From: Apostichopus japonicus
Lineage: Eukaryota > Echinodermata > Holothuroidea > Aspidochirotida > Stichopodidae
NCBI RefSeq assembly: GCF_037975245.1
Contig: NC_092575.1
Span: 26,881,841-26,945,840 of the forward strand
Length of the DNA stretch: 64,000 nucleotides
Reading direction: 5' to 3'
Of the stretch, positions 24,701 to 36,700 are shown in pieces. The translations under genes were made by a program, and so were the position numbers. The stretch's first letter is position 1. The number at the start of each line of letters is the position of its first letter. The notes under the pieces were generated by a model. It was not told where the DNA came from and did no database searches. It saw nothing but the letters and a program-made list of their open reading frames with translations.

Positions 24701-27700
24701 TGCGTTCACCCCATTCTATATTTAAGAAGAAGGTGAGAAGCTGAGGGTACACTCTCGTCTGTCGGATGCAGAAATTAATAGGAGCAAGAATGGATGCGAC
24801 AAATGACACGCCTGCCAACTCGTAACTCATCGAAAAGAGAAGACTTGGTATCATAAGCTGGTGTTCATCCACAATCGGTTTCGAATGAGCTTCTATTGCT
24901 TCCTAACCCTTGAAAAATTCAAAACTAAAGAAAAACAAAAAGAAAAAAATTATTGAATAAATTAAAGTCATTAAAGTTAAAACATTTCAAGGTATTTGTG
25001 GACTTACCTCAAGTCGTTTTTCATATTTTTTTAATAGGATGAAAAGTGCGCTGGAATTTGCTAAATTACGGATACCCAAAAAATAAGGAAATGTTGATTG
25101 GTCTAAGTACTTATTTTCATCGTTCTTAAATGATTTCATCGACATTTCAGTTAATTATTTTCCATTAGTAATAACGATAAAGAATGGCTTTTGCTTCGGC
25201 AGCTTCGTAACATTGATGCCGTCGAGTACGTGGAGGAGGATAACATCATGAAGATTGCACAGTTAGACTCCTGGGGATTGGATCGTGTCGACCAGTTCTC
25301 ACTTCCTTTAGATAACACATATGCGCCTATCGGTAAGTATTGCTCCCTTAGAATAACACATATGCGCCTATCGGTAAGTATTGCTCCCTTAGAATAACAC
25401 ATATGCGCCTATCGGTAAGTATTGCTCCCTTAGAATAACACATATGCGCACATCGGTAAGTATTGCTGCACAGATATATTCCTGGGGATTGGATCGTGTC
25501 AATCTGTTCTCGCCTCTTTAGGATAACACACATGCGTACATCGGTGGGTGTAGCTGCACAGATTTACTCCTGGGGATTGGATCATGTCGACCAGTTCTCG
25601 CTCCCTTAAGATAACAATATGTTTATATCGGTGCGTTAGCTGCACGGATATACTCCTGGGATTGGATGGTGTCGATAGGTTGTGGCTACATTCAGACAAC
25701 ACCTATGCGCCTATCAGTAGGGATAGTTGCACAGACATACTCCAGGGGATTGGATCGTGTCAACCAAGTCTCGCTTACTGTGCATAACACACATGCGCAC
25801 ATCGGTGGGTATAACTGCATACTCCTGGGGATTGGATGATTTCAAACCAGTCTCGTTTACTGCACATAACACACATGTACACATCGGTGGGTATAGCTGC
25901 ACAGGTATACTCCTGGGGATTGGATGATTTCAAACAAGTCTCGTTTACTGTACAGAACACAAATGCGCACATCGGTGGGTATAACTGCACATATATACTC
26001 CTGGGGATTGGATCGTGTCAACCAAGTCTCGCTTACTGTACATAACACACATGCGCACATCGGTGGGTATAACTGCACATATATACTCCTGGGGATTGGA
26101 TCGTGCCAACCAAGTCTCGCTTACTGTACATAACACATGCGCACATCTGTGGGTATAACTGCACAGTTATACTCCAGGGGATTGGATCGTGTCAACCAAG
26201 TCTCGCTTACTGTACATAAGACACATGCGCACATCGGCGGGTATAGCTGCACATATATACTCCTAGGGATTGGATCGTGTCAGTCGATTCTCTCACCGTA
26301 GATAATACATATATGCGCATATCTCAGTAAGTATATAGCTGCATATAGATAGACTGGTTGGGATGAGTTCATGTCAACCAATTTTGATTTAAGTTGATTT
26401 AGGTTAATTGAATTTCGTATTGAGAAAACAACCCATACAGGGTTTTTAAAGATGGAAGGCTTCTACATAATACACAAAATGAATCAGCTATGTTAATTGT
26501 TAAGTTTTAACTCTAAATAGTGATTGTTGAACCATGATATAGGTCACCGTCAACAGTTTTTACTGCGAACTGCATGCCCGTTTTGCATATATTTAGAATA
26601 TTTCTGCCTATATTCATTTTAACGGTATATTGTATTGTAGGAAAAGGATGAAAACGGAAAATAAAATACCTTTTAGAATAAAATGGTGAATTTGATCCCT
26701 TGTGCAGGTGACGGAGCTGGTGTTCATGTGTATGTTCTGGATACTGGTATCAATGAGCCTCACGTGGATTTTCAAGGTCGAGGTGTGAACGCTTATGATG
26801 CTATTTCAGGAGGCGATGTAAGTGTTTAAGTCAACATGTAGTGCAGTTGTGAGTGTTTATGTCAACATGCAGTGCATATGTAAGTGTTTAAGTCAACATG
26901 CAGTGCATATGTAAGTGTTAAAGTCAACATGTAGTGCAGATGTAAGTGTTAAGTCAATATACAGCTCAGATGTAAGAGTCTAAGTCAACATGTAGTGCAG
27001 CTGTGATTGTTTAATTAAACATACAGTGCAGATGTAAGTGTTTATGTCAACATACTGTGCAGATGTAAGTGTTTATGTCAACATGTTGTGCATATGTAAG
27101 TGTTTTAGTCAACATACAGTGCAGTTGTAAGTATTTAAATCAACACGCAGTGCAGTTGTAAGTGTTTATGTCACCATGCAGTGCAGATGTAGGGGTATTA
27201 AGTCAGCATGCAGTACATATGTAAGTGTTTATGTCAACAAGTAGTGCAGTTGTGAGTGTTTTAGGCAACATACAGTGCAGATGTAAGTGTTGAAGTCAAC
27301 ATGCAGTGCAGATGTAAGTGTTGAAGTCAACATGCAGTGCAGATGTAAGTGTTTAAGTCAACATGCATGGCATACAGAGTCTCCGAGAGCCATGTCTGGT
27401 CTCTGGCATAATTTTGTCATTGGGAGATCTGTTTGCACACTCCATCTTTGCTTAAGTATATATCAAAGAAACGAAAATAAGTTATGCTTTATCCCATATT
27501 CTCTCGGACCTCTCCATATAATGTTGGGCAATCCCTTATCGACCCCGAATCCCTTATCGACCCCGAATCCCGTGGCTGTTTCCCAATTCCCTGAAACTGC
27601 TACAGAATAATCCACTCGCCAGACACGGTCATCAGATCTAAAAGCTGGTTGCAGTGATTTCAAACGGGTTACCTTAGAATTTCAGAACATTGTCACTTTC

Positions 27701-33700: not shown

Positions 33701-36700
33701 AAACGTTGTCCTAGCCGCATCTGCTCTAAAAGTGTTTCCCCCTTCCTCAACACCCTCTTTACCCCTTCCCACAGAAAGGAGCGACTAACTGCACCATAAT
33801 TTGTTTGTATTGTTGTCGCAGATTTTGGGAAGAATACAAACATACTCCTATACATATACTGCTTTAATATTTTGCCATTTACTGTAAACTGTTTTGAAAT
33901 TCCTTACTGCTTTCAGGATGGAATTCGAGGTTGCTGATATTCCTATACATTGCTGCCTTTGATTATTGTTGTGTTAGTGGTTCTAAACGGTATTGTATTA
34001 TTTTCACATTTTCACAGTTGCACCAACCTCTGCTCCTTGCAACAGTGGTTCGATCACTACCAGTGGTTCCGAAGTCACCTCGCCGGGTTACCCTAACGCC
34101 TATGGCAACGGTGTAAGCTGTTCCACCGATGTTATTGCATCCGCAGGACAAGTAGTTTTGCTGAGCTTCACTGATTTCGAGCTTGAAGGTTCGGCAACAT
34201 GTTTCTATGACAAATTGGCGGTGAGTATTTTATTTGGCTTCCAGATATTTTGTTTGTTTATGCAAGTGATTTATCACAATTTCATAGTGACGATTACATT
34301 GAAGGCTAATCACTTTATCCCAATACTGGACATTTGTATTCCCCCCCCCAATAAAAAAGTCAACGTAAAACTGTTGCTTAATTATAAAATTAGATGAATT
34401 TTACAATACAAATGTCTGTTATGATTAATAACGATAAGATATTAAATTCATGGAATCGGTCAGATGCTTTTGTTTAAAATTTAAAAAAAAATCGATCACT
34501 CTACACAGACAATGAAATTAAAAATCATACAGGACTTCAAAATATATCAAGTTTTTCGTCTACAATCATCTGAAGAAAAAAAATTCTTTTTATTGTTTTA
34601 AGTTTAGGTTACATAAGTATAGTATATTAATATTTTCTTTCGGTTTTTCTACATTTCGCCATCAAGGACACTTTTTCCATGTTAGTATTTATTTTCAAAT
34701 GCAAATTAGAATCATTCATACTTTTTTTAAAGTTTTATTCATTTTGGAATAAATAAATTACTACAGACACTCTTATGAAAATGATGAGAATTTTGCATTA
34801 ATGGCATCAAAATGTTTATGTTAAATGCCACAAGCGCATAATCATCTTTGGCCTAAATTTGCTTGGTAATATACATTATATTCCAAGGCCAACCTTTTTG
34901 AGTTTACACTTTTTTGAGTCAACACTCTATTATGTACATTGGTAACCCACCTATATATGTTGAAGCCATATGAATACAAATTTACCAACTTATAGAGTAA
35001 TAATGCACAAACATGCTTGCTGCAAGTTCCCAAGGAGAAGGGTGCGGGAGAGGTGAAATATGTGATAAGGTTATTTTAATATCATCTTGCTTAAACAGGT
35101 TTACGATGGAGAAAAAATAGGAAAGTCGATTATAGTTGTACATGATAACAATGTAAGTTACCTTCAGTATTTGAACTAGATGGTTTTCATATATGTTCTG
35201 CTTAAAATAAACTCAAACATGAAACCAGCTGTGTCAGACAGAGCGGTTTTACTTTTCTTTGAATCTTATCTTAATCAATAGGTTTACGATGGAAGTTCTT
35301 CTTCTAGTCCCCTTATTATTGAGCTATGTGGTTCTGACATGCCAAGTCCGATTTACAGCAGTGGACCGTTGATGTACATGGAATTCACTACAGACAGTTC
35401 TGTAACCTATACAGGATATAACGGCACAGTAACCTTTATTGATGAATCAGAGGTTCCCACCGCTCCTCCACCACGTAAGTAGGTACTAAATGTAGCTGTT
35501 TATAACAGCCTGCATGATATAGTGGCACAGTAACCTTTATTGATGAATCAGAGGTTCCCAACACTCTTCCACCACGTAAGTATACGTACTAACTGTAGCT
35601 GTTTATAACAGCCTACAGGATATAATGGCACAGTAACTTTTATTGGTAAATCAGAGGTCCCCACCACTCCTCCACCACGTAAGTAGGTACAGGTACTAAA
35701 TGTAGCTGTTTATAACAGCCTGCATGATATAGTGGCACAATAACCTTTATTGATGAATCAGAGGTTCCCAACACTCCTCCACCACGTAAGTATACGTTTT
35801 AACTGTAGCTGTTTATAACAGCCTGCATGATATAGTGGCACAGTAACCTTTATTGATGAATCAGAGGTTCCCAACACTCCTCCACCACGTAAGTATACGT
35901 TTTAACTGTAGCTGTTTATAAAAGCCTACAGGATATAATGGCACAGTAACTTTTATTGGTAAATCAGAGGTCCCCACCACTCCTCCATCACGTAAGTTCG
36001 TACTAAATGTAGATGTTCGTAACAGCTACAGGATATAAAGGCAAAGTATCCTTCATTGATGAATCAGCGGTTCCCACCACTCATCCACCATATGTCAGTA
36101 TAGTTACTCACAAATATAGCTGTTTATAACAGCCATACAGTTTATAATGGTAGAGTAACCTTTATTGACGAATCAGAGTTTCCCACCGCTCTTAAACTAC
36201 GTAAACATATACTAAAAAAACAGCTACAGGATATAAAGGCACAGTGATTTTTGTTGTTGTAATGAATCAGAGGTTGCCACCGCTCCTCCACCAAACACCA
36301 AACACCGCGAAAGAAACCGCACACCTCGGATAATCGTATCAACAGAACGACTACAAATAATCAGACCCCGACAAAAGGTACAATACAGCGATAATCCTTT
36401 AATCCCCGGTAATCCCGATGATGAGTCTACATATTCCAGGAGTATAACTTAAAACCACCAGATGTCTGATGATCGCTAAACGCGTGAAACTCTAAGTAAC
36501 AACTACTAGTGTTCCACTAGTCTCAACTAGCCTTAACCTATAAATATATATTTTTTATATATATCCTGACTCAATATTTCCAACTATTGTTCCGGTCGTT
36601 TATTTTACAGCTACCAGTGGTTGTGGCTCTGTACAGAGTGAACCGTCTGGTAACCTCACCACACCAGGATACCCCTCACAGTACTCAGCGTCCCTTGACT

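Follow-up and report, generated by a model that had tools for sequence, protein, structure and literature searches.

Boundary-spanning tandem arrays in three introns of a subtilase gene of Apostichopus japonicus

A subtilase gene of the sea cucumber Apostichopus japonicus has three introns that open with tandem arrays. The gene lies in a stretch of 64,000 nucleotides (the window) of contig NC_092575.1, positions 26,881,841 to 26,945,840 of the forward strand in assembly GCF_037975245.1. It codes for a Peptidase_S8 domain and two CUB domains and runs on the + strand from ~21.8 kb of the window. Introns 3, 4 and 12 each begin with an array, detected by Tandem Repeats Finder (TRF), whose unit holds the end of the preceding exon together with the donor, or 5' splice site. 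These arrays are probably ordinary minisatellites of exon-intron boundaries, the 'mirages' described in amphioxus, tolerated at donors without being attracted to them.

Exons 3 to 12 of the gene were placed by reading frame and by their AG and GT ends, the placement ending at exon 12, and the frame is unbroken over their junctions. Pieces at ~21788 and 23435 fit as exons 1 and 2 and agree with the intron numbering of a preliminary description of this DNA. That description had each of the three introns starting with an array of exon end plus donor, which is borne out by TRF, by alignment of the units and by the positions of the donors. The four TRF calls in these introns score from 300 to 1144. 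Two of them are in intron 3, at 25304-25467 (41 bp x4.0) and 25435-26282 (88 bp x9.8), and one is the intron-4 array as given in Table 1. The remaining one is in intron 12 at 35410-36191 (103 bp x7.5), and wraparound alignment lengthens this array to 9 units, with its end at 36293. Unit lengths of about 86, 31 and 103 bp had been given before; the last two stand, and the first has to be corrected to 88 bp with a nested 41-bp sub-array in front. Every one of the three arrays starts less than one unit from the true donor: 29 nt upstream of it for the 41-bp unit of intron 3 (~63-77 nt for the 88-bp unit), 3 nt in intron 4 and 65 nt in intron 12. Compared with one another, the arrays have no similarity at E 0.01, in agreement with the earlier view of three separate arrays with different units.

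The splice signal is retained in many units and not in all. Past the true donors there are 37 donor-like sites scoring at least 4 within the arrays (11 in intron 3, 16 in intron 4 and 10 in intron 12), other copies having decayed; the scores come from a generic metazoan matrix. Outside the arrays, intron sequence from exon 3 to exon 12 holds 4.6 such sites per kb. The frame would be kept by 9 of the 37 in-array donors, and none of the 37 gives a frame-keeping product without a stop.

A simple sequence of events could account for this anatomy. A short tandem duplication would have landed across a donor, and the duplicated piece would then have expanded, with slippage or unequal exchange behind both its growth and its turnover. 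The 5'-most donor would still end the exon and all the later copies would become intron. Such an array is presumably tolerated because the 5'-most donor still terminates the exon, and we infer that only this first donor is used. The array appears to start at the exon end because the first copy across any donor is by definition exon, so that an array starting at a donor needs no special mechanism. The presence of arrays at donors would thus reflect a minisatellite-rich genome and a permissive site, and not attraction by the donors.

A paralogue of the gene (paralogue B, the window gene being A) lies 49 kb downstream, with exons 3-12 93-100% identical over the aligned parts, and it also carries all three arrays, indicating that the arrays are older than the gene duplication and not recent. 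Their contents have changed to different degrees. Intron 4 has 18 units in A versus 4 in B, the first units being 100% alike. Intron 12 has 9 units in each copy, and the position pairs A1-B1, A7-B7, A8-B8 and A9-B9 are 99%, 96%, 84% and 99% identical, while the inner units A2, A4 and A5 all have B4 as their best match. The end units are thus orthologous and most inner units are not, indicating that array interiors have been remade since the duplication. Homogenisation has acted within the intron-12 array and spared its boundary units, a pattern less clear in intron 3. We also ran TRF on six stretches of 2.25 kb, each lying upstream of another subtilase hit. It found one 13-bp array and microsatellites in one of them (L170) and no array of period 15 or longer in any, a result that says little because exons and donors are unmapped there. 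A mobile repeat unit was considered for the intron-3 and intron-4 junctions and rejected, as DNA searches with these junctions found, among the matches listed, only the two paralogues. The window itself contains a tandem duplication of ~50 kb (629-44651 and 53435 onward), the subtilase gene recurring just past the window's end. Three tRNA-Leu genes at 5027-5806 recur as two at 57927-58275, and the (CAT)n runs of the duplicated halves have 137 units at 11159-11568 versus 50 at 62723-62871.

The frequency of arrays at donors was estimated in the whole genome (671.58 Mb in 35 contigs) from a small random sample of 140 exons, drawn from hits to three families, SNF, myosin and kinesin, with AMP-binding hits kept outside. 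The pool held 96 of 97 listed hits for SNF and 70 of 70 for myosin; one long hit was dropped and 100 of the remaining 165 were drawn (59 SNF, 41 myosin). For kinesin it held 123 of 131 listed hits, of which 60 were drawn and 40 fetched. A minisatellite was any TRF array with a period of at least 15. Eight of the 140 assigned donors score below 3, and one exon lacks an assigned acceptor. The script counted minisatellites over the donor in 4/140 exons, which became 3/140 after removal of one misplaced donor (that of L063, which scores 1.6 and sits in the intron). Over the acceptor there was a minisatellite in one exon, giving four with a junction-spanning minisatellite and a first rough frequency for this kind of array. 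In the introns, 3-5% of the bases at a distance of 60-300 bp lie within minisatellites, and by coverage (4.3% used) about six of the 140 would be expected. Donors therefore have no excess over the intron background in this sample (P = 0.15 for three or fewer), and acceptors look depleted of minisatellites (P = 0.017 for one or fewer). On the acceptor side, a 168 bp x1.9 tandem duplication in L126 (C16:12356799-12356903, - strand) spans the acceptor and the start of a kinesin exon.

A motif count over the genome gave a similar picture. Triples of the AGGTAAGT motif spaced 26-56 bp apart matched 361 times versus 437 for the reversed control, with no donor excess; these counts are raw and not normalised for single-motif frequency, which leaves room for a modest excess of the donor motif. 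In the region listed for both motifs (C1 to C3:11.8 Mb) we distinguished by eye 11 arrays for the donor motif versus 10 for the reversed one. Four of the latter are tetranucleotide-like, leaving 6 without them.

Some observations weigh against the reading of the arrays as minisatellites placed without regard to donors, among them their clustering in single genes. A single myosin gene (L162-L164) accounts for all three donor-spanning cases of the sample; they affect 3/3 sampled exons of this gene, versus 0/137 elsewhere. The probability that three random exons share a gene is about 0.0003, a figure that is post hoc and uses a crude grouping of genes. The subtilase gene likewise has three donor-spanning arrays, and random placement would predict such clustering only if genes differed strongly in array density. 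Junction-spanning arrays are found at 6 donors versus 1 acceptor (p = 0.125), a count that takes in the three subtilase arrays, which were selected because they lie at donors; without them the split is 3 versus 1. The sequence of the donor copies also contributes, as the donor hexamer ranks among the least divergent quarter of windows in three of six sets of units (ranks 7/31, 13/88 and 9/53) and the GT is invariant in five of the six.

From this clustering it could be proposed that in some genes of this species minisatellites have arisen across the donors again and again, each time independently: the subtilase pair has three, the myosin gene three and the other 137 sampled exons none. We consider this doubtful. 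If true, it would point to a driver acting at the level of the gene, for which germline transcription, R-loops formed at 5' splice sites and local repair would be candidates, and the clustering is in any case a concrete oddity that can be tested. The myosin gene, which we take to be myosin-V-like from its sequence at C4:23.970-23.999 Mb, also has arrays in its interior, and ~10 bp after another donor-like site it carries a 20 bp x2 repeat; its general richness in arrays may explain the three at its donors. The broader proposal treats 5' splice sites, those of some genes more than others, as mutational hotspots where tandem duplications arise, with R-loops or transcription-replication conflict as possible causes. 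The two gene clusters, the sample split between donors and acceptor and two small repeats starting at 30450 and 31424, which is 12 and 20 bp past donors, are in its favour. However, donor coverage does not rise above the intron background, the donor motif has no excess in the genome-wide tandem triples and duplication occurs on the acceptor side as well, so that a hotspot seems unlikely. The same counts speak against the single mechanism aimed at 5' splice sites that the preliminary description had suggested. Its expectation that donor-anchored arrays are commoner than arrays elsewhere in introns did not hold in the 140 exons, a small sample and not a full genome-wide scan.

Selection for competing donors that tune splicing had been offered as another cause. 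That the extra donors are kept as decoys or competitors, acting mostly through unproductive splicing, is quite improbable. In its favour, a strong donor is retained in many copies, as with the 16 sites of intron 4, the invariant GT and the low-divergence hexamers point the same way, and the failure of all 37 in-array donors to give an open frame-keeping product is what an unproductive-splicing switch would require. The title of a cited work ties a variable number of tandem repeats (VNTR) in human CBS to reduced activity. Yet in the other three sets the hexamer diverges about as much as the remaining unit sequence, ranking in the middle of the unit windows (45/103, 68/103 and 47/88); the sets from paralogues A and B are not independent. 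In addition, the donors of intron 3 have largely decayed to GTGGGT and copy number differs between paralogues, 18 versus 4. Per-column divergence gave no consistent codon-position pattern for exon-derived sequence in the arrays of introns 3 and 12, and conservation of the donor copies did not consistently exceed that of the remaining unit. We read this as no clear selection on the donor copies, a reading that the three low ranks and the constant GT speak against. The lack of any open frame-keeping product among the in-array donors counts against competing donors. The units could also have been recruited as alternative mini-exons, following the intron-gain model that the available text of the amphioxus work sets out for globins. 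By eye the intron-12 units do have an exon copy, a donor and a tract ending in AG, but their exon-derived parts lack a codon-position signal and we regard this as very improbable. Equally remote is an artefact of assembly, in which repeats were collapsed or expanded. Tandem arrays are error-prone in short-read assemblies, which would count for it. Against it, the available text for the A. japonicus assembly that presumably matches the genome used here describes PacBio HiFi data at 64x with a mean read of 14.7 kb (PMC10344927), far exceeding the arrays, all below 1.1 kb. The units have diverged and agree unit by unit with those of a separate paralogue. The HiFi data and this agreement together make an artefact unlikely.

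Table 1. Exons, arrays and small repeats of the subtilase gene, with arrays used for comparison (window positions unless a contig is named)
Feature	Position	Strand	Remarks
Intron-3 array	25304..26350	+	41 bp x4 with exon end + GTAAGT, followed by ~10 units of 88 bp whose donor has mostly decayed to GTGGGT
Intron-4 array	26815..27367	+	31 bp x17.8; GTAAGT retained in most units; 3 exon bases per unit
Intron-12 array	35410..36293	+	9 units of 103 bp, each with 65 nt of exon and 38 nt of intron
Exon 1 piece (signal peptide, start of pro-region)	21788..21895	+	open reading frame MKLFLLF...; splice ends approximate
Exon 2 piece (pro-region)	23435..23600	+	open reading frame; splice ends approximate
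Exon 3	25203..25332	+	true donor GTAAGT at 25333; paralogue B 99.2% identical
Exon 4	26708..26817	+	true donor at 26818
Exon 5	27849..27990	+	
Exon 6	29719..29903	+	
Exon 7	30266..30437	+	
Exon 8	31218..31403	+	
Exon 9 (CUB 1)	31725..31909	+	
Exon 10 (CUB 1)	32812..33016	+	
Exon 11 (CUB 2)	34018..34220	+	
Exon 12 (CUB 2)	35282..35474	+	true donor at 35475
38 bp x2 repeat	30450..30526	+	starts 12 bp inside intron 7; donor outside repeat
(AT)17	31424..31458	+	starts 20 bp inside intron 8
Comparison array, 38 bp x8.9	42859..43199	-	apparent intron of dehydrogenase-like gene (read by eye), ~74 bp past donor; not donor-spanning
Myosin gene, L162-L164	C4:23969500-23999499		donor-spanning arrays 53 bp x17, 62 bp, 163 bp x3.9

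Other features were noted in the window and in the genome. Intron 11 of the subtilase gene contains at 35099-35150 a piece resembling the start of exon 12 (GTTTACGATGGA) with its own AG and GTAAGT, possibly an alternative exon or an old duplicate. Upstream of the gene there is a 1.4-kb TGTTA-like array at 15906-17361. Contig C35 is the mitochondrion, 16,099 bp long, with the echinoderm code and the order COX1-ND4L-COX2. COX1-like pieces with TGA codons are found at C29:14745-31219 and could possibly be a mitochondrial copy or a fragment contig.

The closest known systems are the amphioxus mirages, minisatellite-like tandem duplications of exon-intron boundaries described in Adh3, globins, PGBD5 and TnC (PMC3087553, PMC3902484). 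In the available portions of these reports, as here, the units span the boundary, many of them but not all retain splice signals, their length varies by gene (10 to 160 bp in amphioxus), several genes are affected and the units at the boundary of a cluster escape homogenisation. Judged by this anatomy, the subtilase arrays appear to be mirages. The present case differs in coming from an echinoderm and not a cephalochordate and in having three donor-side arrays in one gene, common to two paralogues.

The human CBS VNTR, c.1444_1467+7(16_21), has a 31-bp unit made up of 24 coding and 7 intronic bases and repeated 16-21 times according to the text available (PMC2630376), and a table in PMC1395315 places it at exon 13-intron 13. 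Its unit also crosses the donor, and the figures are close to the 31 bp x18 of intron 4, an equality of unit length that we take as coincidence. CBS has a single array, in another gene and phylum, and its population polymorphism is known. Tandem duplication that takes in splice signals is also the basis of internal duplication and of intron creation from AG|GT (Rogers 1989, Venkatesh 1999, Zhuo 2007, Gao and Lynch 2009, as cited in the available text of PMC3087553), although new introns arise there and existing introns grow here. We found no echinoderm case of a boundary-spanning minisatellite in the open-access literature searched; as far as that search shows, the subtilase arrays extend these minisatellites from amphioxus and human to a new phylum.

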